Shown here: in pieces, positions 2,677-49,831 of the stretch
Layout: every line of letters starts with the position of its first letter
Numbering within the stretch: the first letter of the stretch is position 1
NCBI GenBank assembly: GCA_004764695.1
Contig: SMSO01000031.1
Coordinates: 6,443,261-6,507,260 of the forward strand
DNA from: Schizochytrium sp. TIO01
Taxonomy: Eukaryota; Sar; Bigyra; Thraustochytrida; Thraustochytriidae
Direction: 5' to 3'
DNA length: 64,000 nt
Position numbers and translations under genes: made by a program
The notes under the pieces: model-generated
The model's input: only the letters and a program-made list of their open reading frames with translations
Database searches by the model: none
Told to the model about the DNA's origin: nothing

Positions 2677-3250
2677 GGGTAAGCTTTATATAGCTATAAG
2701 TGTAAGTAGTAGTAGTTTTCAGTTTTTTTAGTTTTAAAATAAATTAGACTTTTATAAATAAATACTTTAGAAATAATTACTTGTGATATATTGGGCGAAC
2801 CAATGTATGAATCTAGTCGAAGCGCGATTTATGGTTGTACGATTGCAGTGACTGACATTTCGAGTCATCTATTTTGTTGAGGACGTTTGATCATTTCCTG
2901 TCGCCACAAATATCTTACGATAATGACGTCTTCTGGAGACCGCGAACCCCTTCTACGAACCTACTGACGATTAACAGGGACTCTTATGGTTTATGGTAAA
3001 CGCATAATTTGCCTCGGCATGCGCTCATACATAAAAATAAGAGCTCAGAAAACCGAGACATCAAAACCACAATACCTGTATTGCCTCCACGTAGCCAATG
3101 TATACGGGGGGGGGAAGACAACTCGAGCAAAACTCCTCCAAGGCTTGCATATAGACCTTGACGTCATGTGTTGTCCTTGAGCGCATCAGGAGCACTGGTG
3201 GCAGTTTCTAATGTAATTTCTGCTTCCTTTCATTATGATTGGGTGAAAGT

Positions 3251-3292
3251 GAATAAATGAATGAATGAATGAATGAATGAATGAATGAATGA
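3251..3292. repeat. Tetranucleotide microsatellite (GAAT)n
   Basis: About ten tandem GAAT/ATGA units lie 180 bp upstream of the METTL9-like start codon. The same unit recurs near 59.4 kb and 62.0 kb. Confidence 0.95.
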
Positions 3293-3467
3293 GAGATGCA
3301 CTATGCAACATATTCATCCATACCAAAATTGAAAGTGAGCTGAGAGCGACTTCGCCTTCTACTACTTGGAGATCCAGTGCAGGTGCAACATTGGCGGTGG
3401 CTGAGATCTCTCTGACACAAGGTGCTTTCTTGGAGAGAGGTCCTGTTATTTTAAAGTAGAGGGAACG

Positions 3468-4353
3468 ATGCTTCGTGGTTCGACGGCGGGGCTCAAGTAT
3501 AGCGCAGGCCAAGCTCTGCGTAAGTCTTGTGCAGAGCGTAGTGTTCGATTTTGCGAGCTGCATGCCGATGATGCAACCAAGCACTTTGTGGATACTGCTC
3601 CGGTGGCCACACCATCTCAATCTCTTGCCCACAGGTTTTTGGCAATGGTAATGAGCTACTATGATGCAAATGCAACCTTGGGAATATACCCTTTGCACTT
3701 GTTCTCGCGAGATCAATGGACTCAGCTCCTGCACGAGACCACCGATCGATCGAAATTCCCGCAAGGATTTCAACGTGCGCTTGACATTGGTGCGGGAGAT
3801 GGCAGCATGGCACAAACGCTTCTTATGCCAATTGCGCACGAGATTCATGCCACAGAGACGTCCAAAAAAATGGCAGCTCTTGCCCGTGAAAGGGGTGTAG
3901 ATTGCCACGATGTAGATCTTACTGCCGCGAATTTCCAATGAGAGCACCCTCAAGGGCCCCTTCGACCTCATTACCGTCTTCAATGTCCTAGACCGGACGA
4001 ACCGACCCCGCACGCTTCTCGAGAAGGTCTCAGGGTTGCTAGCATCTGATGGAATTTGCGTCATTGCATCGCCGCTTCCCATGCGCCAGGTTTGTTTCGA
4101 AGGCGCGAGACGGAAGAAACCCGAGGAAAGTCTCCCTCTTCCGGATACTAAATCGCCAGCTCTCGCCGCTTATGCAGGGGAAGATGTCTGGGATGCCTAC
4201 GCTTATTCGTTCATGTTCGAATTCCTAAAAGAGCAAGTCCCCGATCTTAAAATTGAGGGATTTACGCGGCTGCCTTATTTGTCGAGTGGAGACTTCTCGG
4301 AGCCCCTCGTCAAATACGATGACATTGCTGTTGTGCTCTCAAAAAGGAATTGA
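3468..4353 (+). CDS. METTL9: METTL9/DREV-type protein histidine methyltransferase, frame broken once
   Basis: This is a seven-beta-strand SAM-dependent methyltransferase. The family (METTL9) methylates the pros-nitrogen of histidine in xHxH sites. The N-terminal frame (3468-3938) has the SAM-binding loop LDIGAGDG and the acidic strand end ATET. The second frame (3940-4353) has VFNVLDRT, matching the NLLDR-type motif of METTL9, and near the C-terminus FTRLPYLSSGD, a near-exact match to the family signature FTRLPYLCEGD. Together they give about 294 residues, close to the human 318. The first frame ends at TGA 3939-3941, and the second frame is open from 3916, so a single extra base (+1) separates the halves. 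A 31-nt GT-AG intron (3912-3942) would also restore the frame, but it would delete residues that look coding. The start is ATG 3468. Identity is confident; whether the gene is intact is not. Confidence 0.85.
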
Positions 4354-5977
4354 GCGGGCGTAATTTGTATGCACAAAATCTGCAAACTGTTGCTGCACGG
4401 ACACTGACTGACACTAACTGATCTCTTGACGGTGTGTATTGGTCTTTGTTTGTCGACTTGTCTTTTCTTTTTTCCTTTTGTTTTAAATGCACAAAGCATA
4501 GGCGGGCATTTGGCATTGGCTTTATCTGTGTGTTCTTTTTGCTCAAAGTACAGGGTATTGCACCTTCAGTCCAGCCCATCTTCATTTATTCGAGATAGAT
4601 GCTGAGCGAAACCTACATTGAACTTTGATGGATTTCCGCTTGTTGGCTTAATTGTTGTGCCTCATCACGCCTTTTACGTGGGTTCACTCGATATTTATCC
4701 TGAATGACCGAGGTGTCTTACAATGGCGGTGATGCTTAAGCACTGAAATGCATACCCTGGTCATTTCGACCCAACCAACCTGAAGATCCCACGGGCAAGC
4801 TTTATGCCTAAGAATTCACGACACTCATAATCCGCACTCGAGCACTGAAGAAGCTGGAGCGCCGCACCCTTTACTTGAGCATAGGTTTTGCGAAATAGCA
4901 AACCCCAAACCGCTCCATCATTCGCTATCGTAGTACCTCTATAGTACCTCTATTGGAGGTACATATGCCACACATACTTTCTTCGACGTCACCCAAAACC
5001 ACTCCTACAGTTTCCCTTATAAACTCCTATCAGCGCGCAATGGTCTCTAAATTCGCCTTTGGGCGGGAATCTCTGCGTGGTCCTGCATCTCATACAAGTA
5101 TTCGCTGGCGCCTTGGCTGGCCTATGTTTTAGAGTAGACGAGGGCCTAAAGGGCTGTGGAGCCCGTAGTTCTGGAGCCCGTTCTAAGCGACAGCGTCGGC
5201 GACTCGCAGGTTTGTTGTGATAGTTCTTCGATGATTCTCGAGAAGACAGAAGGTATCGAAGCGCGTGGCGAAGCAAAAGCCTCGAGGAGCTTCGCAAGAA
5301 CGTAAGCACCATGCAACGCATCTTGGTAAGTGGCTTAGGGCGCTGCGGTGCCCCGGCCAAGCGGCTTTCCATTGGCTCCACCCGTCGAAGTGAAGGACTT
5401 GGAGACAGAAGGAAACAAGAACAAGAACAAGAACGAACAGAACGAACAGAGAAAGAACAGAGAAAAGAACAGAGGAATAAGTTCCTCGCGATGGGAAAAA
5501 TCCGACTTCTTCACGCCCCAGTGCGGCCCAAGAGGAGAGCCGTAAACTTTAAGCAGAATCTTCCCCTCACACCCCCTCCTAGCGCGACTGACCCAACCCC
5601 CCCAACTTGGCTCGTTCCCTCACACCGCAGCCCCCTCCTGCGACCCCCCAGCTCGGCAACCTGCCCCCTCTCAACGCACAAGAGTACCCCCACACCTGCA
5701 GTGCCGTCCCCTCGCGCACTGCAACCTAGGCACGCCCAGTGGGGCTGAAGGGGAAGCAGCTCCGCCTGGCACAGAAGCTGCTCTGTTTGGGCCCCAGAGG
5801 CGGCCAGAGGCAGAGGGGGAGGAGCGGCCAAAGCTAACCCAACCCTAGTTAAACCTAACCCGAGCCACGAGAGCGCGTCGTTCCTGAGCGGCGCCTTTCT
5901 CCAATTTTCGCTCGCGCGGAGGCCGCTGGCGCGCGACCGGCTGCGCAAGAGTGGCACGGAGCCGCCACAGCGGCAGC
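4354..5977. other. Intergenic region upstream of the sirtuin gene
   Basis: I see no supported gene. A short direct repeat (AGTACCTCTAT, twice) followed by its partial inverse lies at 4930-4965. A stretch at 5404-5475 is rich in GAACAA/GAACAGA units. From 5500 to 5970 the DNA is C-rich and probably the sirtuin 5' UTR or promoter. A GTAAGT at about 5326 could be a donor for a 5' UTR intron, but I cannot place its acceptor. Confidence 0.4.
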
Positions 5978-8900
5978 ATGGACCCCCTCGCGGCGGCACC
6001 CGCCGCTGACACCCCCGCGGCCGCCCCTGCAGCGGCGGCGGAATCGGCGATGACCGCGAATCCAGGCCCGAACTGCCAGCAGGCCGCCCCCGCCAGCCCC
6101 GAGGCCGCTGCCGAGGGCGGCGCCGCGGGGGCCGGGGCGGCGCCCGGGGAGGCTGGCCAGGCTCCCGGCAAGCCTCCGGCCGCCCGCGCAGACAGCGGCG
6201 CAGGCAGCGGAGCGGCGCAGGACGGAGGAGCGGCGAGCGAGGGCCTCGCCGCGGGTCCTATAGATTCTGGTAGGGAGGATGCTAAGAGTGCTGCGATAAT
6301 GACAGAGGGTGCCACGAAGCAGGACGGGTTCCGCGACGGTTCTGCGGGAACCGGCGATGTGGAGGCTAAGGCGGAAGCAGAGGGTAAGGGAGAAGCAAGT
6401 GGAGACATGAATAATGCAGCAGCAGCAGCAGAGGGTGCTGAGCGGCAGGAGGGAGCAGGCGTGGTGGATGGTGATGAAGACGACGACGATGATGAGTTTG
6501 AGGAGTTCATGCCGGCGACGGTACCAGCGCACGCTCGCGTGGAGCTGCTGGTGAGGCTGTTTCCGGGTATTTCGTTCGTGCAGAGACTACAGCAGAGCCC
6601 GACGAAACGGAGACTGGTGGAGGCAATGCCACCGCATGAGTTTGAGAAGCTTGTGATGGTTGTGCAGTCTCGCACGCAAGGGTACAGGAAGAGGTGTGTG
6701 GAAATCCGCAGCCTCGCGCAGGTGGCGTCGCTCATCAAGTCGTCCAGACGCATCCTCGTGCTTACGGGGGCTGGAATCTCAACGAGTTGCGGAATTCCAG
6801 ACTTTAGATCCAGCCACGGAGTATACTCCATGCTCGACGGTTACAAGCTCAAGGACCCGCAGGACCTATTCTCCATCCACTATTTCCGCAGAAACACGAA
6901 GCCTTTCTACGACTTTGCGCGGAAACTCTGGCCTGGAACTCATGAACCAGCTCCCACCCATTACTTCATCAAGCGTTTGGAGACTCATGGGCACCTTCAC
7001 CGCAATTATACTCAGAATATCGATACCCTTGAGTGTGTTGCAGGTATTGAGCGTGTCTTGCAATGCCACGGCTCGTTTGCGACGGCTACATGTACACGCT
7101 GCAAATATCGATGCGAAGGAGACCGTATCAAGGATGATATCATGAACAAGCGGGCACCCGTCTGTCCACGCTGCGCTCAGAGCCCTCCCTCGTCCTTAAT
7201 GGAAGAAGTGGTCATGCGCGACCCAAGCATGCGTGCCTTTCGTTTCGGAGGTGGTCGCTCCAACTCTATCTCCAGCGAGAGCGATCTCGAGTCGGACTTA
7301 GGCCTTCGTGGATCTCCCAGTCACGCCGCACAAGCACGCGCCCAGGCTTCAGCCAGTGCTTCTAATCATCATAGCTTGTCTACTGCCCCGAACTCTGGGT
7401 CAACTCCTGAAGCAGAAGGCCAGCATGTTCCTCAGCCCGAGCCCTTTTCTGCCCCGGCCTCGATAGAAGAACGCAATAGCACGGTCTCATTGTCGGGCCC
7501 GATAGCTGGAACTCAGAACTCAACCTCTGCTGTTGATTCAGCTCATGTGTCAGAGGCACAGCCGAAAATACGGCCCACTGTGGCAGTGAGTACCTCTGCT
7601 GCCGCTGCACATCGCGCCATCGGAGGTAGCCATGGTCATGGAAGCTCCTTTGAGCCGGATTCCCCATTTGCCTCTTCTGCAAAGAAGGTGTTTGGCAATA
7701 ACGCTGGTCACCATCAGCCTTCTGGTCTGCAGCACAGCTCAGGCTCTTTGAACAAGCAACAAAATCAACAAGGTAAGGATCAATCGAAGCGCCCTGGAAT
7801 TAGGACAAACAGTCTGGCTTCTGATGGTGACCCGATGGTACCGCCAAGTCCAACCTTGTCCCAACTAAGTCGGTCTAACAGCCTCAGCTCTCTAGCAACG
7901 CCCCGCGCAAACGTTCTGTCTCGTAGCTACCATCGCTCTGCGGCAGAAGCAGCAGATAGTTCTTCCAAGCTGCAAACGCAGAGCGATGACTTTGATACTA
8001 TCAAGTCAGAGAAGGATGCTTCTTCCTTGGCTGCAGTGAAGGCCGAGGCAAGTTTGCTCCCCATGGACATGGCCCAGGATATGGCTAGTAAGGAGGCCTT
8101 GTCTACTGCCGACGAAAATGGTCACGTCGATGACGATAACACTAACAATAATAACCTCTTGCCCTCTGACGTTCAAGCTTTGTATGCTGCACATGGTAAT
8201 CAGGATGATGACCCAAAGGGAACGGGCCTTGACCCAATGCCTGTGCAAGCGACACCAGAGGAACATATGCCCCCTACAGAGATTACAACTGCAAGGCCAC
8301 ATGGAGGCGCTTCCGCAGATGTTTCTATGGGATCCTTTTCCTCTTCTGTTTCTTCTGCCGCTGCCATGCCTCCAGTGGCGCCACCCGCTAACGATAACGG
8401 ACCTACTGCCATGGAGATCTCCAAGCCTTCTCAATCCCAAGAGCACGAGCACGTAGATCGTGCTGAGGAAAGCCACCGGGAGAACAGCACGGATTCCCAT
8501 GCTGAATTTGATGTGGCCAAGGACGGCGACTTGTTAGAGGATGAACTTCCTTTCGTGGATGAAATGTTTGACAAGGGTATCATGAAGCCTGACATTGTCT
8601 TCTTTGGCGAATCCCTACCGAACGAATTCTTCGACTGTATCGAGGAAGACGTTCGACTTTGTGACATGGTTATCGTGCTCGGCACAAGTCTTAAGGTTGC
8701 ACCTGTGTCACGAATTATCGAAATGGTTGATCCTGAAATCCCGCAGATTCTCATCAATCGCGAGGTTGTTGCCCAGCCTCACCAGTTTGATGCAGAACTT
8801 CTTGGCAATTGTGATGCTGTGGTCGCAGCTCTTGCTCGGGAGCTCAACTGGGATCTGCCTGGTGTTGCGTCCCCGAGCAATGAATCAACAGGTGAAAATG

Positions 8901-9289
8901 ATGGCGAACCTGATGATGATGCAGTTGCTAATGAAGAAGGTGAAGATGTTACCGGAGAACCTACAGCTTACCGGCAACACGAAAATCGTCCGCATCGGTT
9001 CTTGTTCCAAGGTGCTTATGAAGACTCTGATGATGAAGAGGATTCCGACGAGGATGATTCTGATCTAGAGAATGGCGAAAATGATGCCTCAGATGAGTCA
9101 TCGTCTTCGGACGAGGAGAACAACGAGGCCCAAGAACTGGGACCCGATATGGTTGCCCGAGACCGTGCGGAAGGTTCAATGTCATCCATTGATCAAGAAC
9201 TTGGTGACAAACGCCCTCCCAAGGCTGGCTTGGAGGGCAGCCCAAAACGAGCTCGAATGAATGGTTCCTTCAGCAATACTATTGAGTGA
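5978..9289 (+). CDS. SIRT1: SIRT1-class NAD-dependent protein deacetylase with a large internal insertion
   Basis: This is a sirtuin, which removes acetyl groups from lysines using NAD+ and is usually nuclear in this subclass. The protein is 1103 residues. Residues 1-180 are Ala/Gly/Glu-rich. The Rossmann start LVLTGAGISTSCGIPDFRS is near residue 257. QNIDTLE precedes the catalytic His at about 364 (QCHGSF). The zinc cysteines are C372/C375 (CTRC) and C396/C399 (CPRC). The fold resumes only at about residue 870 with KPDIVFFGE, then LGTSLKVAPV and PQILINRE, which match SIRT1. In ordinary SIRT1 the gap between the last zinc Cys and KPEIVFFGE is about a dozen residues; here it is about 470 Ser/Ala/Gln-rich residues. 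The tail (about 970-1100) is very acidic. I chose ATG 5978 because the frame's earlier start is only GTG. No stop or clean splice signal interrupts the insertion. Identity is very confident. Confidence 0.93.
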   Translation: MDPLAAAPAADTPAAAPAAAAESAMTANPGPNCQQAAPASPEAAAEGGAAGAGAAPGEAGQAPGKPPAARADSGAGSGAAQDGGAASEGLAAGPIDSGREDAKSAAIMTEGATKQDGFRDGSAGTGDVEAKAEAEGKGEASGDMNNAAAAAEGAERQEGAGVVDGDEDDDDDEFEEFMPATVPAHARVELLVRLFPGISFVQRLQQSPTKRRLVEAMPPHEFEKLVMVVQSRTQGYRKRCVEIRSLAQVASLIKSSRRILVLTGAGISTSCGIPDFRSSHGVYSMLDGYKLKDPQDLFSIHYFRRNTKPFYDFARKLWPGTHEPAPTHYFIKRLETHGHLHRNYTQNIDTLECVAGIERVLQCHGSFATATCTRCKYRCEGDRIKDDIMNKRAPVCPRCAQSPPSSLMEEVVMRDPSMRAFRFGGGRSNSISSESDLESDLGLRGSPSHAAQARAQASASASNHHSLSTAPNSGSTPEAEGQHVPQPEPFSAPASIEERNSTVSLSGPIAGTQNSTSAVDSAHVSEAQPKIRPTVAVSTSAAAAHRAIGGSHGHGSSFEPDSPFASSAKKVFGNNAGHHQPSGLQHSSGSLNKQQNQQGKDQSKRPGIRTNSLASDGDPMVPPSPTLSQLSRSNSLSSLATPRANVLSRSYHRSAAEAADSSSKLQTQSDDFDTIKSEKDASSLAAVKAEASLLPMDMAQDMASKEALSTADENGHVDDDNTNNNNLLPSDVQALYAAHGNQDDDPKGTGLDPMPVQATPEEHMPPTEITTARPHGGASADVSMGSFSSSVSSAAAMPPVAPPANDNGPTAMEISKPSQSQEHEHVDRAEESHRENSTDSHAEFDVAKDGDLLEDELPFVDEMFDKGIMKPDIVFFGESLPNEFFDCIEEDVRLCDMVIVLGTSLKVAPVSRIIEMVDPEIPQILINREVVAQPHQFDAELLGNCDAVVAALARELNWDLPGVASPSNESTGENDGEPDDDAVANEEGEDVTGEPTAYRQHENRPHRFLFQGAYEDSDDEEDSDEDDSDLENGENDASDESSSSDEENNEAQELGPDMVARDRAEGSMSSIDQELGDKRPPKAGLEGSPKRARMNGSFSNTIE

Positions 9290-10133: not shown

Positions 10134-13100
10134 TTACTCTACAAAGATACCGATTGGATCGAGATCCTCGAGCAGTGACGCAGTATGGACGTCCATAAAC
10201 GTGGCCGTTCCATCAGTGCCCGCAAGGCTGGTAATTGCATGTTTGCCTCCAGGGTGGTTTTCAGCATAAGCTGTGAGGTCGTATACCTTTCCGTCGATGG
10301 CAACCCAGCAATCCTCAGGCTTGTTGTGCTTCTTGAGGTCAGCAAGAGATATGCTCATTTGCTGGACTTCAGTGCCATCATGAGCATCAGAAGAGCCGAT
10401 CCGTCCTTGGCCGGACGCCACGCGTTTTGTTTGTGTACGGACCGGAACATGGGACCCTACGTGAAGACCAAAGACAGCACATTCCGTAAGACCGTTACCG
10501 CCAAGACGGTTGTTGCCGTGAATTCCGCCCACAACCTCGCCAACAGCGTATAGCTTACCACCAGCAACAGGAACGCCCGCATCGCTCAAACAGCGACCTT
10601 GAGCATCAATCCGCAAACCGCCCATCGAATAGTGGACAGCTGGGGTAATGTAACCAACATAAAAGGGAAAGTCCTTCGCAATAGGAGCGTCGGGACACAC
10701 TGTTCTGTTGTAAGGGTCAGGGAATGACTGCATGTCACTGCAAGATTGATCAAATGCCTCCAACGTCTTTTGAACAACCCCAACATCAGCTCCAAGCTCC
10801 TTTGCTAAACTTTCCACAGAATCAATCTCCCACATCAAACCCTTTCTTTTGTACATGGGGATATGCTTTGGAGCCTGAGCAGCAACTTGCGCACTCAACA
10901 CCATGAGATATTCCGGTTGGGAATCCTTGTCCTCATTGTGTGCAATCATCTTTTCCGAAACATACTTGCGAGTACCTAGTTCATTTACAAAACGGTGGCC
11001 ACGGTGGTCCAGCATCACAGCACCAACACTGCGCAAAAGTTCCGCAGCCAAAGTCTTTGAAGGACTTAGGCGATCTTTTGGGTCTACAAAAGCTGTGGGA
11101 TGGACCTGAACCTGTTCAATATCGACAATATCCGATCCGATAGCCGTTGCAAGCTTAATGCCGTCACCCGTTGCGAATTTTCCGTTTGTTGTTCCGAACT
11201 TTGCAAGGTCCGGTCGGTGCTGCAACAAGAAGGAGTTTTCTCCTCGATGGTACCCGTACCCGCCTGTTGCAATTACAACAGTATGAGCTTCAATGTCAAA
11301 GGTGTGTTGGGATGAAGTGTCGGTGCAGCGAAGCCCGCTAATAGCATGGTTTTCAACTAAAATCTCCTCGACCTTAGTTTTGCGATAGAATTTCAGCTTC
11401 CCAGAGTCCTCGTATTCTTTAACAGCACGGTTGACAGCAACAATAAGTTCGGAACCAGCAAGGCCGGTGGAAGGACGCCATGTACGCGGCCTAGAGTGGC
11501 CACCCAGCTGGCTAACTTCGCCGAGTGACATGCCTACACGAGACCGAAGCCACTCAAGAGCCTCCACACTGCCTTGAGTAAGCACATCAACAAGCGGATT
11601 TGTAGCATATGAGGGGCGTTCACTGCCCTTTACCATATCTTCTTTGAATTGCGCCACTGAATCGTTGAACCTCGACATGCTAGTGCCGTCAATACCATTG
11701 ATTCCACTTGAGGCCTTTGCCGAGTTGCCACCAGGACCTCCTTCTTTGTCAATAAGAATTACAGAACCACCACGATCAAGGATTGAAAGTGCTGTTGTAA
11801 GGCCAGAAAGGCCGGCACCAATGATGACTGCATCTGGGGTCTGAGATCCTTCCCTCAATCCCGCAACAGCTCCAAGACGACGGAGGGCATGCCGAAGAAA
11901 AGAAGCATGGTGTCCCTCCATAGCAAAATTCTTGGCTAAAAGAATCAGTTCCTCATCACCATCCAACAAAGCATCCACGAGAATATCCTCAGAGTCTTCG
12001 TCAAGTGTGCCACTGCCTGCCGCAGAAGATACAATCCCGAGAGCGGTATCCTTTGATACCCTGTAGTCCCTCCTTGGTAGCCAATGGCATGCCGTTCATC
12101 TTTGAGACAGCTGGAGCAGCAGATGCGAACGAATTAGCTTGCCCGGAGAACATTGCATTTTTCATGTTCTCATGAATATCTATCGCCTCTGAAAACTTTG
12201 CAATGGTGTTGAAGAGTGCGACAACTTCCTCACGGGACAAGTTTTCCTTAATCAAGTTTTCAGGCAACAAAAGCATCTTTAAAGCGGTACCCATACCAAG
12301 AAGCTGCAACTTGCCGTGTAATTTGCAACGCTGGCAGCGGATGCAGTTGAAAATACTGCTAATGTTGTGAAAGATATCCTTAAATCGGCGTTTTAGGTTC
12401 GCCAAAGTAGATACCTTCGGGCCATTCTCATCAACAAACAAGAGGCTCTCATCGAATGCTTCAAACACAGTCTGGCATGATTGAAGCACAAATGAATCTA
12501 AAAACAAAGACACCAGCTTATTAGTGCGTTGGTCCTCGCGGGTATCTCCAGTGGCAAACTTAAACTCGCGAAGTACAGGTGTCGCCCTGCGTACTGCTCG
12601 CAGCAAAACGACAAAAGCAAACTCAAGGTTCTTGAATCTCTCGGGATTACTCTCAAATTGGCGTCGGAAGCGTTCTAAATCGCGTTCCCAACGATCCCGT
12701 TTGCCGGGCACAGGCGGTTTGTAGTGTTCTGAAATATGCAAGTTAATACTTGAATGCAAACCAGAGAGCATCCGGTAAAGGAACCTCTCCTCGTAGCACA
12801 TATCTGCTTCCTCAATTTCAAAGCAGTTTTCTCCATAGATTTCATTCCACACTGCACTACCATTATAACCCGTGTACATCTCAGGGTTTAACTGAAGGTT
12901 AATGTACTCCATTGTTGAATCGTTGAAGGGAAGTTTTGCACAAAGATTTGTCCAGAATGAAGGAAGTGACTCATCCTCGCAGTCCTCTTCTGCTTGGGAC
13001 ACAACATCGCCTTCATGCTGTGAAAGAGTCTTGTCGATTCCGACACCAGCACCATTACTTGGACCGCCAAATCCGCCAAATCCACTAGCACCAGGAGAAC

Positions 13101-13512
13101 CTCCAAAAAATGGACTACCTCCTGTGCTATCATCGCTCCCCTTCAACGAACACAAAGGCTCTGGAGCACTACCATCTGGTTCTGGGTCTTCATCTGAGCC
13201 GCAACTTGGCGCTTCTGGTTCCTCACCTTCGGCGTCAAGCGGGCACTCACCATCAAGTTGTACCCTAAAAAGTCTAAAGTAGGTTGTGTTTGTAAGCTCC
13301 TCTAACAGCCGGAGCAAGTAGTCTGAGTTCGCGGTCTTGATTGCCTCTGAATTGCAAACAAGCTCATCATCAAAAAGAACTTTGGCCCGGAGTGGTGGCT
13401 TTCCATCGCGACGACTATCCGCATTGGCAGCACCAGGAAGATCCGATAAGGCCACCACGAGGCAACAGAAAGCTGCGAGCAGCCATTTCCAAGATACTGT
13501 CTTTGATGACAT
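10134..13512 (-). CDS. ERO1 - fumarate reductase flavoprotein - cytochrome b5 fusion (two overlapping frames)
   Basis: The first frame (13512-12001) is ERO1, the ER thiol oxidase that reoxidises protein disulfide isomerase. A signal peptide with core WLLAAFCCLVVAL is followed by LLRLLEELTNTTYFRLFRVQ, LNPEMYTGYNGSAVWNEIYG, LYRMLSGLHSSINLHISEHY and the active site C390-x2-C393-x2-C396 before HGKLQLLGMGTALKML. The second frame is an FAD fumarate reductase (Osm1 family): GAGLSG, QVHPTAF, RFVNELGTRKY, VHYSMGGLRID and NNRLGGNGLTE carry the expected active-site His and Arg. It ends in a cytochrome b5 domain with HPGG and a second His (MDVHTA). The frames overlap, so no promoter or separate signal peptide exists for the reductase, whose first in-frame ATG lies inside the linker region. 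Removing 12017-12059 (43 nt, GT-AG) fuses them as 1111 residues with GAGLSG at about 551 and HPGG at about 1072. A single +1 indel would do the same. Each domain is very confident; the fusion is strongly suggested, not proven. Confidence 0.88.
12017..12059 (-). other. Candidate 43-nt intron joining ERO1 and fumarate reductase frames
   Basis: On the minus strand the segment begins GTATCA after CTACAGG and ends TTCTGCGGCAG. It falls in phase 1, and excising it gives a total coding length of 3336 nt with no stop. It lacks the TGCTAAC-like branch site seen in the 31910-31986 intron and is shorter than the two clear introns here (77 and 181 nt). A one-base frame error is therefore an equal alternative. 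Confidence 0.35.
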
Positions 13513-17943: not shown

Positions 17944-20900
17944 TTAAATTTCATCCCCTCCATCTGCAAGATTCATAGCGGAAACAGTAATTGTGCTCGG
18001 GCTTTCAACATTCTCTCTCTCACCTTCGTACTTGATCCAGCGCATCCAGTAGGCCAATGCAAGCAAAGCTCTTAAGAGACAGCCTACATTAGGAGGGTTT
18101 GATTTCTTATCATCCTCAAAGTCAGCCACTGAAGCCTCAATCTTCTCCTCCCGCTCCTCGATTGCATGATGTGTAGCTCGGAGGATGATCTGCGACAGAA
18201 TTGTTGTAAGCATTGCACCCATAACCAATAGACCGCAACCGGGTTCCAAACTTGATGAAATGTACAAACAGGTGGCATTTTCTTCAGTTATTAGACCAGC
18301 AGGGAGTAAGACATCCTCAATCAATGGCATAATATGGGTACATACGGGCTTGAGCAAGACGTAAGAGATATGACCAAGTTCCATAACGCCAACAATAAGA
18401 CCGACGACGAAAACATCTACGCATGACCATGCTGAAAAAACCTCTGTCACAAGGTACATCCACTTTTGACGGTGCAACGTCATTGGTTTTAGCCAAATAT
18501 ACAAAAGTCCTCCGAGAGTAAAAAGAGGGAAAAAAGCTGCGGTAAGAAGATAAGCAAAAGCGAGAAATAGAACGCCAATGATAAAGCCGACATTGTCATT
18601 CGTAGACTCAAAAGCTTGACGAACAGCAAAAGCGAAGGTGTCCAGGACAGAATATGGTTTCCAGGATTGTACTTCGTCTATGTCCATAAACATTCCAATT
18701 AAACCCAGAATTTCAAATCCAAAAGAGGGAATGCATAGCCCGACCAATACCAGAATCGAAGTCACACAAAGAAGTAAAGTGATAACGCGTTTTCCAAATG
18801 TCGTAAAACGAACAACTCGACCATCCGCCAATTTAAAATGATGATCGCATAGACATACAAGATCACTGGCAGACTCGCCATGTTCTAGCCATGTCGAAAA
18901 GCGGCGCCGGGCAGGCCTACTTCTTCCTTCCTCATCGCCTCCCATCGGATTTTGAGTCTTAAATCTTGACGCTTCGTAATCTGCAACTGCAGCAGCAAGT
19001 TCAGGATCTTGAAGAGCTTGGCGATCCGCATCAATTGCATTTCGATGATAGTAGACCAGTGTATTGTTTGTAAATAACGATAGCATTGCAGCTGCAGTGA
19101 ATGACACCAGTCCAATAGCCGGGTCAACAAACACCCTTGCTGCATAAAACCCCTCGGGTAAGATGTTCAGGTTCGGGTTTTCGATTTCGAGACCAAAAGC
19201 CACCATGATTAGCAAAAGAACATAGACATCAATCATTGACCATTTTCCGACAGTATCAAAACCATCCAAGATTTTGCCACGCCTAGTGGCTGACATGAAG
19301 CGAGTTGGCGTGAGCCAACAGGTTCCCATTGTTAGCACCTTAATATAAGGGAACGCTCCACTAAGACTGGCGAGAAGGAGAGCCAAAGGAATAATTCCAG
19401 AGTCCCATAGCTGCTTAATACTCTTCCCAATAGAGAACCCCTCTACATTATCCATAAGTATGTCATCTCCAAGGATTGTAAAGAGGACATTGATGTTCGC
19501 TGCAGTGATGACATGACCGATCGCAAAAAGGAAAGTATTAAGGAAAAGCATACCAAGGACCCCAAAGCTTGCGTACCATGGCACAGCAGGATGAAACCCT
19601 AAGCACGACTTACGTTGGGCGAGCAATTTAGCATCAACGTTCCCGTTTCTCGATGTGTCTCTCCTCTCGAATTGCGATGTCAAAGGCGGGGCACTGACTT
19701 CCAAACGATCTTCAATTACAATATCAGGAGGCTCAGATGCACTCGAAGAAAAGCGAAAGTAACGCTTAAAGCTATCAGAAAAACTCCGTGATTTTCCAAC
19801 CTCCTGCGTGGCATCGCCATTAACATTCTCGTCCTCTGAAATCACTGATGCGGCGTGATCTCTTGAAAGCCTCTGCGTGCTCTTGTCCTCGTTCTTCTTA
19901 CAGCATACTTGGCAGCAACAAGAAACGCTCATACAAACGTTGCAACAACCTCGCGTTCCGAACTTTAAGCAACAACCCAAAGTCATACCAAGGATCATTG
20001 TTGCGCCCATTCCTCCAATGATGCCGAAAATACTCAGCCTCGAGTTCGTCTCGGCTTCATATTCTGAGCTAGTAGTTTCTGACTTTGTCAAACCAGTGGC
20101 CTCACATTCCTCCCTAGCTTCTTCTATGGTAAGAGCGAGCTGCTCATGATCCATTTTCTCCCGAATTTTTCGCAAAATTGTGCTTATCCATTCATTGATC
20201 GTAGCTGTAAGCTCCTCTTGATATGCCTCATTCTTTACCTTCTCTTCCATTTCTAACATTCCAGGAGAGGTACAATTTATGCAACGAAGACCAACATGAA
20301 TCGCTTCAAATCCAGCCTCTAGAACTTGCAATTCGGCGTCATCTAAGCGAGACATCACACACGAAATATCAAGAATCTCTTCAATTGTAAGAAGGTCAAA
20401 GTCTGTGCGATTGAATTTCGCCAGAATATCTAACGTTGCATAGAACCCCTGAAATTCTGCCCAAAATTCAAACTTATTAACAAAATTTGTTGCATCCCCG
20501 GCAAAGTTCATTTCCAAAACCAAAGAAAAAATAACTGGTGGAAGTGTATCATTGCTGCTCGAACCCAGCATACGACGCCCTTCATCGTTACTCAATGCAC
20601 CGCCGAGTTTGAAGGAGTTATGAAGAACATAAGGCTCTGGAGATTCCATAAACTCAATGTCATACATTGAATCAAGACCGTTTAAGCTGACTTCTGCAGC
20701 ACTGATGCTGAAGGTCCCTACTGGAATGGTCAATTCTGTCATAGATGCATCCTCTTGAAGAATATATTTGCCATCTACACCACTTTGAGATCTACATGCA
20801 GGGGCAATATAGCCATCATTGATATCTGGAATAACATCCTCATCGACCATATCAACCAGATCACGAAAGTAAGAATCGCTGTTAAAGTCAAAAAACGGAT

Positions 20901-22527
20901 CATCCGTATACGGCGTTGGCTCAGGGCAGTCGCTGTTCTCAATGAGAGAACCAAAGCCTGAAGTTACGAGATCGGGACCTTTCTCGAGCATAAGACCCGG
21001 CAACGCGGCTAAGCCAGATGGACCATATACATGAAGTGCGGTTTCTAGAATACCTTGCATGAGCTGATTGACTTCGGGACTTATGAGTCCAGAAAGATCA
21101 GGAACTTCACTGAAGCTTTCAAGTTTGCCCCACACCCTCGAAGCCTGGAAGAAATCAAACGTGGTAAGTATACAATCAAAAGGGTTTTCTAGTACAGAGC
21201 CGAAACCAAGATTCCATGCATCAACGCTGTTGATTGCTAATGCTAGCGCGAGGCTCACGTCAAGCCTATCTAAGTCCAGGGCTAATTCAAAAACTTCATC
21301 CTGTATGTCGATACCCATATGTTCCAAGCGACGCCGAAACGAGGAAGGCATACCAGTAAGAATCTCCATGTTAAGGACAAGCTCAGCTTTACCACGGAGG
21401 TCCGCGAGGGAAATATTGCTTTCAATGGTATAAGGGCCGTAGACTTTTACTGGATCAAAACTTTGAACACTATCGAGACCAGAAAGGCTGACTTGAGAAA
21501 GATCGAGTTTCACAGCAAAGTAGTCCTTAAAGCTTAACTCAAGAAGGGTTACATTCCCGGCATTTATATCAAAGTTTCCTGTTCCTTGTGTAATAGCTCT
21601 CAAAAGATCTGCTGCAGATGAATTTGTGTTTGCGTAGCCTAGGTCCTCAAGAGTAAAGCCAGAGTTAAAAGCATCAAATGCCATTCCGAAGATATCGCTC
21701 GTTTGAAAATCAACCCAGTCTTCATTAATGTCAGAAATGGAGGCCTCAGCGTTAAGACGGTCCACGTACTGGTTCTCCATACCCTGATATTCTACGAGTA
21801 ATGCAGCAAAATCCTCCAGCGTTGGGGATAAGGCAGTTTCGATCACATCATCTAACATTTGACAGACAATGTTGTTTTCCTGGTCAAGCTGAAGAATATC
21901 ATTCAAAGCGCTGGCTGATACCTCTCTGATAGAATCTGCAAATTCTGTCTCAACATCTTCTATAAATGATGTAAGTGATTTTTTTGATGTATCAGCAGTA
22001 TCAGACGAAAAGTCTATGAAAAAAGAGAAGTCATTTGCCCAATCTACATCTATCGCGCATGAGTCCATACTAATATTTGTGGGTGGCTGAAGAGCAAAAT
22101 CATCGCTTCTAAATGTAAAACCAAGCTCAAACGCATCAATGGTAAAGTCTACCGAAAGAGTTGCTTCTCCAGTAGCAACTTTCACAAAATGGTAATAGTC
22201 AAATGTTGTGACCCATGCACAAGAAACGCTGATATTCCGCAAACCTGTGTCTACAGAACGCTCTGATAAACTTTGAGCAGTGGTAGAGTTAGGTTTAATC
22301 CAAAGCTTGTCAATACTGACGTCTTCGCATGTTAAATTACTCAATCCTACATTTAATGTGCTTCTGCCTGAAGAGACCTTGAAGGAAGTGCTAAAATTTG
22401 ACATTTTGAAAACTGCATCATCAAAGAGAGACTGATATCCACCTTCACCAATTTGAAAAAGGCAAGCAAGAACCCCAATCAGCAGCAGACGAAGTGTCAT
22501 TGCCTTGGAAACTTTCTTTGACGCCAT
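17944..22527 (-). CDS. Secreted TULIP/BPI-like ectodomain fused to two PqiA-like membrane modules
   Basis: This is a 1527-residue type I-like polytopic protein. After a signal peptide (core LRLLLIGVLACLF) come about 800 residues of beta-rich ectodomain with many N-glycosylation sites. Its repeated alternating strands, for example GRSTLNVGLSNLTC, suggest the lipid-binding BPI/LBP (TULIP) fold. A first membrane helix lies at about 830-855, then a Cys-rich stretch (about 856-880, possibly palmitoylated). Two multi-helix modules follow, each with a PqiA-type signature: SGAFPYIKVL plus GKWSMIDVYVLLLIM (about 1053-1105), and SAWSCVDVFVVGLIVGV (about 1365). Bacterial PqiA also has two such modules and works with an MCE protein in moving lipids between membranes. 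I see no MCE domain. The frame opens at GTG 22584, but ATG 22527 places the signal peptide properly. PqiA similarity is fairly confident, TULIP moderate, lipid transport inferred. Confidence 0.75.
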   Translation of the reverse strand: MASKKVSKAMTLRLLLIGVLACLFQIGEGGYQSLFDDAVFKMSNFSTSFKVSSGRSTLNVGLSNLTCEDVSIDKLWIKPNSTTAQSLSERSVDTGLRNISVSCAWVTTFDYYHFVKVATGEATLSVDFTIDAFELGFTFRSDDFALQPPTNISMDSCAIDVDWANDFSFFIDFSSDTADTSKKSLTSFIEDVETEFADSIREVSASALNDILQLDQENNIVCQMLDDVIETALSPTLEDFAALLVEYQGMENQYVDRLNAEASISDINEDWVDFQTSDIFGMAFDAFNSGFTLEDLGYANTNSSAADLLRAITQGTGNFDINAGNVTLLELSFKDYFAVKLDLSQVSLSGLDSVQSFDPVKVYGPYTIESNISLADLRGKAELVLNMEILTGMPSSFRRRLEHMGIDIQDEVFELALDLDRLDVSLALALAINSVDAWNLGFGSVLENPFDCILTTFDFFQASRVWGKLESFSEVPDLSGLISPEVNQLMQGILETALHVYGPSGLAALPGLMLEKGPDLVTSGFGSLIENSDCPEPTPYTDDPFFDFNSDSYFRDLVDMVDEDVIPDINDGYIAPACRSQSGVDGKYILQEDASMTELTIPVGTFSISAAEVSLNGLDSMYDIEFMESPEPYVLHNSFKLGGALSNDEGRRMLGSSSNDTLPPVIFSLVLEMNFAGDATNFVNKFEFWAEFQGFYATLDILAKFNRTDFDLLTIEEILDISCVMSRLDDAELQVLEAGFEAIHVGLRCINCTSPGMLEMEEKVKNEAYQEELTATINEWISTILRKIREKMDHEQLALTIEEAREECEATGLTKSETTSSEYEAETNSRLSIFGIIGGMGATMILGMTLGCCLKFGTRGCCNVCMSVSCCCQVCCKKNEDKSTQRLSRDHAASVISEDENVNGDATQEVGKSRSFSDSFKRYFRFSSSASEPPDIVIEDRLEVSAPPLTSQFERRDTSRNGNVDAKLLAQRKSCLGFHPAVPWYASFGVLGMLFLNTFLFAIGHVITAANINVLFTILGDDILMDNVEGFSIGKSIKQLWDSGIIPLALLLASLSGAFPYIKVLTMGTCWLTPTRFMSATRRGKILDGFDTVGKWSMIDVYVLLLIMVAFGLEIENPNLNILPEGFYAARVFVDPAIGLVSFTAAAMLSLFTNNTLVYYHRNAIDADRQALQDPELAAAVADYEASRFKTQNPMGGDEEGRSRPARRRFSTWLEHGESASDLVCLCDHHFKLADGRVVRFTTFGKRVITLLLCVTSILVLVGLCIPSFGFEILGLIGMFMDIDEVQSWKPYSVLDTFAFAVRQAFESTNDNVGFIIGVLFLAFAYLLTAAFFPLFTLGGLLYIWLKPMTLHRQKWMYLVTEVFSAWSCVDVFVVGLIVGVMELGHISYVLLKPVCTHIMPLIEDVLLPAGLITEENATCLYISSSLEPGCGLLVMGAMLTTILSQIILRATHHAIEEREEKIEASVADFEDDKKSNPPNVGCLLRALLALAYWMRWIKYEGERENVESPSTITVSAMNLADGGDEI

Positions 22528-23688
22528 GACTACCTTTCTTTGGACAATAGTCTTTGCAAGAAAAACAACCTGGTTGAAGCGCACAATGGCACACTCCTGC
22601 TCTGAATGAGAGCAGACCCAGTGATATCTTATCTATGAATTGGTGTTGTTGAGGCTTCGTTTGGTTAAATCTATCCAGGTTCAGTCGAATAGCAAATTTA
22701 GCCGGGCTATATCGATTTATATTGAACGGTTCGGCGGTGACAGTACCAAGTCCAGGTAGATAAGTTTATTGCTCGAAAGAGGAATTTCTCATGAACATGT
22801 ACAGAAAGAGGGAAGCCGAACACCTCTTTTTGGATCTAGATGAACTTATAATTTGAACACTAACGCTGCAATGAGCGTTGAACTCTAACGTCAATATTTT
22901 CTCTTGAATATGCGTATTGTGTATTTTAGTATCTTCCTTTAAAATTAAAACAATGTGCGGGTCTACGATCGGTACGTCTGCATAATGAGAGGAACCTGCG
23001 TACCCTCTCATAGTACCTACCAGACCAACGCATACCAAAGCTTCTCATTAATTATCTTATTCTGTAGTTAATTATAGCTGGGGTATTAAGGATACAAAGA
23101 GTTAAGAGGACAGAATTTATGTGTCCACCCTCTATATTTCGTTATGTATCCGTTGCACTTCACTGCCGCTAATCCAGTCGCTCGGTTGCAACGGATATTA
23201 TGCATTTTTTTGACGGTCAGTGTGCACCGCGACCCTCAGCAAAGCCACGGTCATAAATGGAAAAGACTTATTGCATATACATTTGCGCACGTTGCTGAGA
23301 CCGTTGTAAATGGCCTGTAACCGTGAATTGTAAGTAGGCTCAAATTTTATATTCAGTTCTGCGTATGGATGAAACAAGTTGAGATAGGAGCTAGGAATAG
23401 GAAGCGGCTAATTCTTTTTCCCTATTAGATTGAGCATCTGATGCCACAAGAATTTAAACAGTGCTTGACCTCGTGAATCCATCAGCAAGGTGGACCTTTG
23501 GTAAATTAAATTGAATTTACTGGAGAGACATTCTGTTGTAAGTATCACTACAAGTAGTTTTCTTGCCTGTGTGCGGGCGTGCTCAGGACAATTTATCTTG
23601 CAAGGACAAAGATCCTGCTTATGAATGGCGCAGCTAGCTGCCTACGGCAAGCAGTTAGCAAAAAGCAAATCTTCTCAAGGGTCACCAA
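22528..23688. promoter_or_regulatory. Divergent promoter region
   Basis: This spacer of about 1.16 kb lies between the TULIP-PqiA gene (minus) and the coiled-coil gene (plus), which start away from each other. It must hold both promoters. I see no specific motif I can name and no supported gene. Confidence 0.5.
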
Positions 23689-45710: not shown

Positions 45711-46692
45711 TTTATTCTCGGCCGTAGCAAAGGCTTGCTTGCGGCTCTAGTTCCGATTGCCAATGCGTGTCTCCACACGCTGGCTTTGCTGGAATTCCCT
45801 CTTGGGCCGAGCAGTGTTTACTTCGTCTCTAAACCAAATGCTACCGGTGCTTGCCAAACGTCTCCTTTATAACAAACAATCAGTGAGGGCGTCAATGAGT
45901 CCTAAGGCAGCTTACTTCAGGAAATATATAAGTTACGGAATACTTCCTTCTCTAGAATAGTAGGGCTTGCAGTTTAAGCAAGGCGATGGAGTCCTGCTAC
46001 TATAGAGGAACGCCACCTTCAAGTATCTGGCAAGCTGTCGTAGTGAATTGATCGAATTGGGTAAACAAGTCTTAGTTTTGACTGTGTTGTACCTATTCTA
46101 GTTTTTTTTGCTATATTGTTAAAACTCAACCAACATAGTTCCGAGACGGACCCAGGATGTCCCTACATAATATGATTAAGAGGTACTATGGGTTGTGCAG
46201 TCCGTTAACGGACACATTCAGAGTAATATCTGAAGGAAGGTAGCGGTGCTTAAGAGCGCAGGAACAAAAGTTTTTGATTGTTATGGTTGAAAAGAATAAT
46301 CTATTAAGAGGAGTGTGCGAAGCTTATATGAATGCTACTTTGTTGTGCATAAAGAGGCCAGCTCCGAAGCGACAAAGTTGCAATTGATCAAGGTAAAGGT
46401 GGTCGCGCCAGGTGCCAGAGGTTCATCGCACTCTCGGCTAATATTAGTGCCTGGGAATCTTGAACAAAGCTTTAGAGAATACAACTATAGAGCGTGTGAA
46501 AGTCCTTAGGAAGAATTGGCAAATCAACATCTTTGCAGGTACGCAAATTAGTTGAAAGCCGAGCGAAAACCTTTCGACAGAAAGACAGTTTGCCAGTTTG
46601 CTGGTTCCTTCGCATTCAAATATACCAAGCTATTTAAGAGCAACCCTTAAGAATCAGAAGATTTCGAGTAAGGAATTGCATACTTTGCCAGG
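45711..46692. promoter_or_regulatory. Divergent promoter region between giant ARM gene and KAP3
   Basis: This 982-bp spacer separates two genes transcribed in opposite directions, so it should contain both promoters. I found no motif that I can name and no supported gene. Confidence 0.5.
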
Positions 46693-49386
46693 ATGCAGTC
46701 TGCATACGACGACTATCGCGAATCGCCAAAGTACTTGAAGCGGAAGGTAAAATCAGGCCATGTTACTGCAGACTATGACAAGCGTGATTTGATTCTCACC
46801 TATGAGGTCGAGGCTACAGTTGTTGGTGATACAGGAAAAGCCATGCAAACCGAGCGAAAGACCCATCGCAAAGCAATGAACGTCAAGCTAGATGCGCATA
46901 CTGATGTTCGACTTTATGCAGAGCAGCTTGTGCATCAGAGTGATCTGATCCCGAATAATAAGGTAGATCACGTGGAAAGTCTCTTGCAAGAACTGAAGGA
47001 TATGACTGTCGAGGACCGATATTGTGCTGATTCTATCAAGAAAGTCAAGCGCGATTCCGAACGAAAGCGTAAAGAAGAAAAGCGCAGGCAAAAGATGGAG
47101 CAGAAGCGCCTTCGTGAACAAGAAATGGCAAACGAAGAACTGGCTAAAGCAGATATTGAGGACCTCAATGAGTATCTTGAGAAGCTCTATGATGATGACA
47201 TGGCAACAAAAGTGCAGGGCACCAGCATGATTCTACAACTTGCGCGAAATGCGGGCAATCTTGAAGATCTGTCCGAGAACGAAGCGCTTATTGGAGCACT
47301 GTCACGGATGCTCCGAGAGGACGCCAAGCGAAAAATGGAGCTTGCGCTTAATATTATGAATACCTTTTGTGCATTCTCAACCTTTTCTCAATTTCACCAC
47401 TTCCTCCACAGCTATCAAGTTGGAAATAATACAATGCGAACCATCAAGTGGGAACTGGAGCGTCATGCCGCCCGCAAAGAGGAGATTGCCTTGCTTGAGA
47501 AGGTAGCTGCAGCGCAAGCTCGAGGAGAAAAACCAACGTTTGATCCGCGAAAGGAGAAAAAGCGTCATGAGCCTGTTGACATGAAGCTTGAACATGCTAA
47601 AACGCGTGCAATGGAGCGCAAACAAGACAAGCTTTTGACAGCGTGCTTGCATGTGCTTATTAATTTGGCAGAGGATGATCGGGTCGAGAAGAAAATGGCA
47701 AAACGTGATCTCGCCAAGGATCTAGTACAAGTGCTTGCTTCGCGAAACTCAACCAACGCTGACCTCTTGGTGCTTGTCTGTACATTTATTCAAAAGCTGG
47801 CTGTGACGAGAGAGAATAAAGATGAATTTCGCGACTTTGAGGTTGTGGAGCACCTTGCTCGTTTTATCCCTTGCTCTAACGAGAGGTTAATGAAAGCTGC
47901 TTTATCAGCACTATTTAATCTCTCTTTTGATTCTGCTGTACGGGAGCAAATGATCAAGTGCTCGGCAATTCCCAAACTTGTGGATTTGCTACAGGAGAAA
48001 GAGTTTCGCGCCGCTTCACTTCGACTTTTGTATCACCTCTCTATTGATGATCAATGCAAGTCAATGTTTACATACACGGAGTTGATCCCATATATGATGC
48101 GAATGATCGTTGATTTTCCGGCCCAGCATGTTGGCAAAGAGCTCGCTGCTTTGGCTATTAATTTAAGCCTTAACGAGCGAAATTGCAGTTTTATGTGTCA
48201 AGGAAACAACTTCAAAAACCTCATTGAGCGAGCAATTAAACGTCAAGATCCGTTGTTGCTAAAGGTAGTGCGGAACATTGCTCGTTGGACACTCTCCCTT
48301 CAAGAAGCATTGCCAGACCCAGCTCCTGCTTCTACTAGTGCTCCTTCAGAAAAGGATGAACGAGTTGAAGCTTTGTGCCGAAGCGACAGCCGTAGCGATG
48401 ATTCTGAAGAAAAACGTAAGAAGCCACAAAGTAATCGTGCTCCTACTTACAAGTGCAAGCGTATGTGGAGCCCTTACGTTAAGGATTTAATTATGCTGAT
48501 GAAGATGACAGACAATTCCAGTGTTCTTGTGGAAACAATGGGAACTATTGCTTGCCTAACGCCTGCAGATTTGTCAAAGTCAGATTCCTTCGGTCATATT
48601 ATTCTTGAGCATGATTTAATTGAGTTCCTCCATAAGCACCTACTGCCTGGATTCTCTGAAGATGATGTTCTTTTGGAGGTTATTATCCTGGTCGGCCAAC
48701 TCTGTCTTGATGATGATGCTGCTCGGCTACTGTGCAGTTCCCCGCTTGTCAAACTAATATATGATGTCTTGCATGAAAAGCAAGATGATAGTGAGATAGT
48801 ACTACAGATTCTCTACAGTTTCCATCGCCTGCTTCGCCACCCAGGGACAGGTCATGCACTTTTGTATGAGACTCAGATGCCCCGTGACGTTTGCGAGTTA
48901 TTGGAGCACGAGAATGCTGTGGTGCGGGTCATGGCTGATAACTTGCTTGATCTTGTCGTTGACCATGATGAAGCAAACGAGAAAACAATGGATATCAATC
49001 GGCGTCTTGCTCGGCGGGCCATTTCTGGAACTCGTGGTGAGCATAAAGGTCAGAATCGAGGTCTCGAAGAAAGCTTTGGCGAGGATGAGGACGGAACTAG
49101 CCCTGAGGTTGACCAGAATGCCTATTGTGAGCTTAAGGGTAGCTTGAGTAAAATGATTCGGGCAAAGCGTTTCTCTCTTCACAACAGAGAGTGGATTGAA
49201 ATGGTTACTCAAGAAGAACTTGACGACTTAGAGGAGCATGACGATGATGAAACAGATTCTGACATTCATCCCAGTCGCGCCTCAGCCTACCGGCATCGCT
49301 CGATGGACGACTACGGTCCAGCAAGCCCATTGTCACCTGACTCATTCATGGAGGATGACGGATTTTCCTTGAGCGAAGCATACTGA
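46693..49386 (+). CDS. KIFAP3: Kinesin-associated protein 3 (kinesin-2 accessory subunit)
   Basis: KAP3 is the non-motor subunit of heterotrimeric kinesin-2, which carries intraflagellar transport trains outward in cilia. The 897-residue frame begins YLKRKVKSGHVTADYDKRDL and continues with YEVEATVVGD and ERKTHRKAM, matching the conserved KAP N-terminus (YLKRKVKGG and YEVEATILG in animals). NTDV-like and LIPNNKVDHVESLLQEL segments follow. A charged coiled helix (about 125-160) leads into ARM repeats, including IPCSNERLMKAALSALFNLS. The C-terminal tail is acidic with SASED-like composition. Length is close to the usual 790-ish residues plus a Glu/Lys insertion near 545-580 and a longer tail. 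ATG 46693 opens the frame. It sits just upstream of DNAAF5 on the same strand. Identity is confident. Confidence 0.9.
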   Translation: MQSAYDDYRESPKYLKRKVKSGHVTADYDKRDLILTYEVEATVVGDTGKAMQTERKTHRKAMNVKLDAHTDVRLYAEQLVHQSDLIPNNKVDHVESLLQELKDMTVEDRYCADSIKKVKRDSERKRKEEKRRQKMEQKRLREQEMANEELAKADIEDLNEYLEKLYDDDMATKVQGTSMILQLARNAGNLEDLSENEALIGALSRMLREDAKRKMELALNIMNTFCAFSTFSQFHHFLHSYQVGNNTMRTIKWELERHAARKEEIALLEKVAAAQARGEKPTFDPRKEKKRHEPVDMKLEHAKTRAMERKQDKLLTACLHVLINLAEDDRVEKKMAKRDLAKDLVQVLASRNSTNADLLVLVCTFIQKLAVTRENKDEFRDFEVVEHLARFIPCSNERLMKAALSALFNLSFDSAVREQMIKCSAIPKLVDLLQEKEFRAASLRLLYHLSIDDQCKSMFTYTELIPYMMRMIVDFPAQHVGKELAALAINLSLNERNCSFMCQGNNFKNLIERAIKRQDPLLLKVVRNIARWTLSLQEALPDPAPASTSAPSEKDERVEALCRSDSRSDDSEEKRKKPQSNRAPTYKCKRMWSPYVKDLIMLMKMTDNSSVLVETMGTIACLTPADLSKSDSFGHIILEHDLIEFLHKHLLPGFSEDDVLLEVIILVGQLCLDDDAARLLCSSPLVKLIYDVLHEKQDDSEIVLQILYSFHRLLRHPGTGHALLYETQMPRDVCELLEHENAVVRVMADNLLDLVVDHDEANEKTMDINRRLARRAISGTRGEHKGQNRGLEESFGEDEDGTSPEVDQNAYCELKGSLSKMIRAKRFSLHNREWIEMVTQEELDDLEEHDDDETDSDIHPSRASAYRHRSMDDYGPASPLSPDSFMEDDGFSLSEAY

Positions 49387-49831
49387 AATTTCCGCCTTGA
49401 ACGTTGACTTCGAAAAACTAAACTAGATGATAGAAATTGTACCCCTAAAAAGAAAAAGAAATATAAATGACTCCCACTTTGCTCCAGATCCTCATCATAT
49501 CTGTTGGTGTCTGTGTCGTCTCTCTCTTCTTAGCTGTTTATTTTTGGGGAAAGTCTGTCTGCATTACTTGCCCCATTCCCATAAATAGTATTCATTTGTT
49601 ATGTAACGGATATTGACTGCGCGCTTAAGCGTCGCTCAAATACCAGAGACGTTGAAAATAAAAATAAAAATATTGGAACGAGTCCCATCGTTTCTCAACC
49701 AATATAAAACTCCAAACTTGCTTGGAGGGTCAAGTTGCGAGGTGGCAACAACACGTATTGAGGCTCGCTGTAAAATCACGACACTGAAGATATTACTAGC
49801 TAACTTCTCGATTGCGCAAAAGTGAGGAAGT
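49387..49831. promoter_or_regulatory. KAP3 to DNAAF5 spacer
   Basis: This 445-bp spacer between two same-strand genes contains the KAP3 3' end and the DNAAF5 promoter. An inverted repeat at 49734-49749 is the only structured element I see. Confidence 0.5.
49734..49749. repeat. Perfect 5-bp-arm inverted repeat GTTGC...GCAAC
   Basis: The 16-bp element GTTGCGAGGTGGCAAC lies 83 bp upstream of the DNAAF5 ATG. It resembles the RFX X-box that controls ciliary genes in animals, but its half-sites are slightly too far apart. It is a single occurrence. Confidence 0.3.

Follow-up and report, generated by a model that had tools for sequence, protein, structure and literature searches.

A thraustochytrid gene that appears to fuse ERO1, fumarate reductase and cytochrome b5

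Two overlapping reading frames at one locus

The window analysed here is a 64,000-nucleotide stretch of the genome of Schizochytrium sp. TIO01. Two long reading frames overlap on its minus strand: an ERO1 frame (13512-12004, stop codon at 12001-12003), which carries an ERO1 domain behind a signal-peptide-like leader, and a fumarate reductase (FRD) frame (12095-10137), which contains a FAD_binding_2 domain (Pfam, E=1e-74) and cytochrome b5. That the frames overlap had been described in the first-pass annotation; they share about 92 nt and stand one base apart in phase, and the first in-frame methionine of the FRD frame lies at 11921. As deposited, the two do not form one reading frame. In the read-through chain of 1125 residues, Pfam places ERO1 at residues 68-445, FAD_binding_2 at 560-1008 and Cyt-b5 at 1056-1111, with the join at approximately residues 483-487 (Table 1). 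The protein sequence has neither a C-terminal transmembrane segment nor a KDEL signal. Structure prediction of the whole chain without an alignment gave a mean pLDDT of 34.9 and is unusable; linker residues 487-550 alone reached 50-60, as helices, which is still low.

Table 1. Features of the fused gene and its frame break (window coordinates)
Feature	Position	Strand	Basis or remark
Whole fused gene	10134..13512	-	1125 aa once the one-base break is read past; chain free of stops
Signal-peptide-like leader, MSSKTVSWKWLLAAFCCLVVALSDLPGAANA, then putative cleavage, then DS	13420..13512	-	inspection and hydropathy
ERO1 domain	12178..13311	-	Pfam PF04137, E=1.6e-83; structure matches
ERO1 active site CIRCQRC (C390-x2-C393-x2-C396)	12325..12345	-	invariant alignment columns
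ERO1-FRD interdomain linker, about 114 aa, without Pfam match	11835..12177	-	coding throughout, first in the ERO1 and later in the FRD frame
One-base frame break, optimum 12052, GGTATCAAAGGATACC	12041..12070	-	switch in the coding model
Alternative 43-nt intron GTATCA..GGCAG joining both frames	12017..12059	-	7 bits below the one-base shift
Soluble fumarate reductase (FAD_binding_2) domain	10488..11834	-	Pfam; Osm1 5glg, E=1.2e-76; catalytic residues
Cytochrome b5 domain, HPGG and second heme-ligand His	10179..10346	-	Pfam PF00173, E=5.9e-21; flavocytochrome b2, E=2.4e-17

Ordinary eukaryotic neighbours share the window: a sirtuin with a long low-complexity insert (5888-9286, plus strand), a kinesin-associated protein (46672-49383, plus), DNAAF5 (49826-52276, plus) and a DENN protein (52492-55680, minus). 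The window also encodes, at 17947-22632 on the minus strand, a protein of 1562 aa in which two stretches belong to the PqiA domain, a membrane family of bacteria found here in a eukaryote.

Conservation of the ERO1 half

The ERO1 profile matches at 281 bits over positions 4-352 of 354, and human and yeast ERO1 structures match the domain with E values of about 1e-39 to 1e-34. All ERO1 landmarks had been reported in the upstream frame at first reading, which holds for the CxxCxxC active site (residues 390-396), where all three cysteines are intact, but not throughout. The CX4C shuttle motif, which we take to be C94/C99 in the human protein and C100/C105 in the yeast one, is absent from the ERO1 half; the sole candidates are C104-x16-C121, and these two cysteines, 16 residues apart, may act as a shuttle pair. 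Among the presumed FAD-contact residues of ERO1, W222, H253, S250 and R292 are kept, while the arginine of NPER(Y/F)TGY (NPERYTGY) is replaced by methionine. Given the loss of CX4C and the change from arginine to methionine, the ERO1 half may be functionally altered. The profile match and the CxxCxxC motif are the grounds for assigning the domain to the ERO1 class; the missing CX4C lowers confidence that it works as a canonical ERO1. The leader, also recognised at first reading, has a clear h-region, an AxA site by inspection and a hydropathy peak of 2.77 over residues 11-23, features that suggest targeting of the fused protein to the ER.

Conservation of the fumarate reductase and cytochrome b5 half

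Yeast Osm1 is the closest solved structure to the FRD, with 162 of 448 aligned residues identical (36%). All seven Osm1 substrate and catalytic residues are kept (S78, S79, H281, R326, H435, R477 and G480), as are nine of the 11 listed FAD contacts. Both axial histidine ligands of the cytochrome b5 domain are likewise present (HPGG and VH, in the alignment with flavocytochrome b2, whose heme domain is the nearest solved one). The second flavin pocket, a feature of Osm1 that is not general to soluble fumarate reductases, has changed: W295, F297, F362, Y363 and P162 of Osm1 correspond to S, T, M, Y and a gap.

Coding evidence for a single gene

We scored the junction with a phase-specific coding model, for which long ORFs in 224 kb of this genome served as training set. 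The training set contains the ERO1-FRD gene and is thus slightly biased towards it, equally for both frames and with no bias for the model comparison. The coding signal stays in the ERO1 frame as far as about 12050, where the FRD frame takes over without any non-coding gap. The best single switch falls at 12052, give or take about 10 bases; the Viterbi path switches there under frame-shift penalties of 8, 12 and 16 bits, and does not at 20. Over 12200-11900 one gene with a 1-nt shift scores 30.0 bits, a gene with the 43-nt intron 22.7 and two separate genes 2.9. The 131 nt upstream of the first FRD methionine score +20.4 as coding, whereas the corresponding stretches of 23 other long genes score between -46.4 and -4.5, which argues that the FRD does not start at that methionine.

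We consider it very probable that ERO1 and FRD form a single fused gene, spliced or not. A GT-AG intron at 12059-12017 would make the fusion real but spliced, with ERO1 alone produced on retention; it has GT..CAG ends and a length of 1 mod 3, and its removal yields LATKEGLQG joined to SGTLDED. The interval itself, however, looks coding in the FRD frame, its removal costs 7 bits, the sampled long genes are mostly uninterrupted, and the comparable +1 break in the IGPS gene described below is not an intron, all of which makes this arrangement very unlikely. The case for two tightly packed genes, with ERO1 ending at 12001 and FRD beginning at methionine 11921 (MEGHHASFLRHALRRLG..., which could be a mitochondrial presequence), can point to a stop and a downstream in-frame methionine in the deposited sequence, but is highly improbable: the model is 27 bits worse than one gene with a one-base shift, in the FRD frame the 79 nt from the ERO1 stop to the FRD methionine score +12.4 bits as coding and the preceding 52 nt +8.0, a promoter would not fit between the frames, as had been pointed out in the first-pass annotation, and the same type of break occurs in conserved single-ORF genes.

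Nature of the frame break

A single spurious base introduced in the assembly is the most likely cause of the break near 12052, because the same +1 breaks interrupt other genes. On the same contig the IGPS gene (indole-3-glycerol phosphate synthase; IGPS-PRAI; C30:6553187, L014) carries one extra base that divides it between two frames: the first matches positions 1-152 of the Pfam profile, the second positions 154-254. PfaA, a subunit of the PUFA synthase that by itself points to a thraustochytrid, is broken by a single additional base within a run of G at about C4:611040-611100 (L027), and within the window the break recurs in an ARM-repeat gene at 41330 and an IQ-motif gene at about 17390. 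These last three controls depend on the expected sequence continuity as read; the IGPS control is independent of it. In about 108 kb of coding sequence the Viterbi path contains six breaks, five of them of the +1 type.

Programmed +1 frameshifting was rejected as the leading idea: breaks occur in unrelated genes (IGPS, PfaA, ARM and IQ), no shared slip sequence was seen among them, and the slip site lacks a stop. Extra-base breaks recur in conserved genes, and they should be kept in mind whenever a gene of this assembly is called fused or split.

Paralogues and genomic context

Across the 64 Mb genome (37 contigs), the fused ERO1 is the only one: our search found neither a second ERO1 nor a second haplotype copy, and the junction DNA occurs once. 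Two further fumarate reductases of the Osm1 type are encoded. One, at C3:1452256-1454136, combines FRD with cytochrome b5, begins with MSQVIIVGGG, has its FAD motif at the start of the chain and is leaderless. The other, at C34:1965287-1966744, belongs to a 1217-aa ORF (L003, 646-4299, minus strand) with an ApbE-like N-terminus, an FRD and a flavin-reductase-like C-terminus; the ApbE and reductase labels come from the general character of the sequence, and we take the architecture to be that of the kinetoplastid NADH-dependent fumarate reductase, seen here in a probable stramenopile. Neither paralogue shows an ER leader. The fused FRD alone has a recognisable one, and it belongs to ERO1.

The conclusion reached at first reading, that the locus encodes one ER-targeted ERO1-FRD-cytochrome b5 gene, is strongly supported by these sequence comparisons, through the continuity of the coding frame, the sole ERO1, the leaderless FRD paralogues and the +1 breaks in control genes. 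It requires an amendment: the coding signal is continuous across the junction, but the deposited domains are not in one frame, and a one-base shift or, less probably, the 43-nt intron is needed to join them.

The genome also encodes several Erv/ALR-type oxidases, including a QSOX-sized frame of 599 aa. Three short Erv/ALR proteins (L030, L031 and L032, on C36, C9 and C6), at least one of them with a C-terminal transmembrane segment, resemble the thiol oxidoreductases of giant viruses, which makes them possible endogenous viral genes.

Occurrence elsewhere

ERO1 searches of viral and genome contig collections (viral_contigs, genome_contigs) returned nothing. FRD searches of the contig collections returned bacterial fumarate reductases and a single eukaryote-like contig (L035), on which an FRD with its own hydrophobic leader stands alone at 2839-4508, with no adjoining ERO1; the ERO1-FRD fusion is therefore not universal. 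This contig, JAIYDP010000504.1, is filed as a Verrucomicrobiaceae MAG and looks eukaryotic, its FRD gene having intron-like interruptions. We found no description of an ERO1-FRD fusion in the open-access literature searched, in agreement with the first-pass annotation, although an unremarked database annotation may exist; a 2025 review of ER redox does not mention fumarate. The one-chain architecture of ERO1, FRD and cytochrome b5 appears to be new, while its parts and their pairing are already known.

Proposed function

Yeast Osm1 can re-oxidise Ero1 under anaerobic conditions, either by way of free FAD or on direct contact (Kim et al. 2018, PMC6242907). The two proteins bind weakly, with a Kd of about 200 uM, docking places their flavins more than 20 A apart, and an Osm1-heme chimera that lost Ero1 binding still supported thiol oxidation (PMC6242907).

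On the best overall explanation, to which we assign a probability of roughly 0.6, the locus would encode a single ER fusion protein, interrupted by a spurious base, with an intramolecular electron route from ERO1 to fumarate. One intron-less gene would give a single ER-lumenal protein composed of leader, ERO1, linker, Osm1-type FRD and cytochrome b5. Reduced PDI would pass electrons to the ERO1 cysteines and thence to the ERO1 FAD, which could be re-oxidised by O2 or, intramolecularly, by the flavin of the attached FRD. The latter transfer might be direct or proceed through the heme of the tethered cytochrome b5, and the electrons would finish on fumarate, yielding succinate, so that disulfide formation could go on at low oxygen without H2O2. 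The fusion would remove the problem of weak binding, and the tethered cytochrome b5 could span the distance between flavins. The ER location, the electron path and the physiology are inferred; the proposed transfer of dithiol electrons to fumarate, with no need of O2, fits the published chemistry of yeast Ero1-Osm1 and the conserved active sites. Given the fusion, fumarate is probably the electron sink of ERO1. A bolder version, a self-contained O2-independent disulfide generator in which electrons from PDI would move from flavin to heme to flavin in one chain and reduce fumarate, with this protein as the organism's sole ERO1, is tentative and falls somewhat short of even odds.

The loss of the pocket aromatics of Osm1 means that the free-FAD route of yeast may not apply in the fusion protein. 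It hints at electron flow via the heme or by direct contact, a reading with which it is in keeping. It also weighs against the main functional alternative, in which the fusion would merely give the FRD an ER address and a fixed stoichiometry, the FRD drawing its electrons from free FAD or some other donor while ERO1 used O2 as usual. That alternative draws on the leaderless FRD paralogues and the reliance of the fused FRD on the ERO1 leader, on the yeast chimera, in which coupling did not need binding (PMC6242907), and on the several Erv/ALR-type oxidases of the organism; with the aromatic free-FAD pocket not kept, we regard it as unlikely.

How eukaryotes form disulfides without oxygen is an open question, and direct transfer between Ero1 and Osm1 was disputed because of the weak hand-off (about 200 uM) and the distance of over 20 A between docked flavins (PMC6242907). 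A natural ERO1-FRD fusion would be independent evolutionary evidence for the pairing. It also offers a construct of fixed 1:1 composition on which kinetics and structure could be studied, and points to a heme as a possible bridge across the flavin gap. Because thraustochytrids are cultivated on an industrial scale, often with little oxygen, a folding route that spares oxygen would have practical interest.

Comparison with known systems

Yeast Ero1 and Osm1 are the same two enzymes, with substrate and catalytic residues in common with the fusion, and the route proposed here has been proposed for them as well: within the ER, electrons would leave dithiols, pass the Ero1 FAD and then the FAD of the reductase, and end on fumarate. 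In yeast, however, they are two weakly binding proteins, and Osm1 has its own leader, no heme and an aromatic pocket for a second FAD, whereas the fusion is one chain with a cytochrome b5 domain and has lost the pocket aromatics. QSOX, which joins thioredoxin to Erv, is a precedent for a covalent thiol-oxidation relay in the secretory pathway; unlike ERO1-FRD it fuses the upstream thiol donor and not the downstream electron acceptor, has an Erv fold and uses O2 as acceptor. A flavin and a heme domain share one chain in the flavocytochrome c3 fumarate reductase (Fcc3) of Shewanella and in flavocytochrome b2. Fcc3 has the same FRD fold as the fusion but is bacterial, with c-type hemes and no ERO1, and flavocytochrome b2 uses lactate and FMN, again without ERO1. 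The FRD-cytochrome b5 paralogue on C3 shares the FRD and C-terminal cytochrome b5 (36% identity overall) but has neither ERO1 nor a leader.
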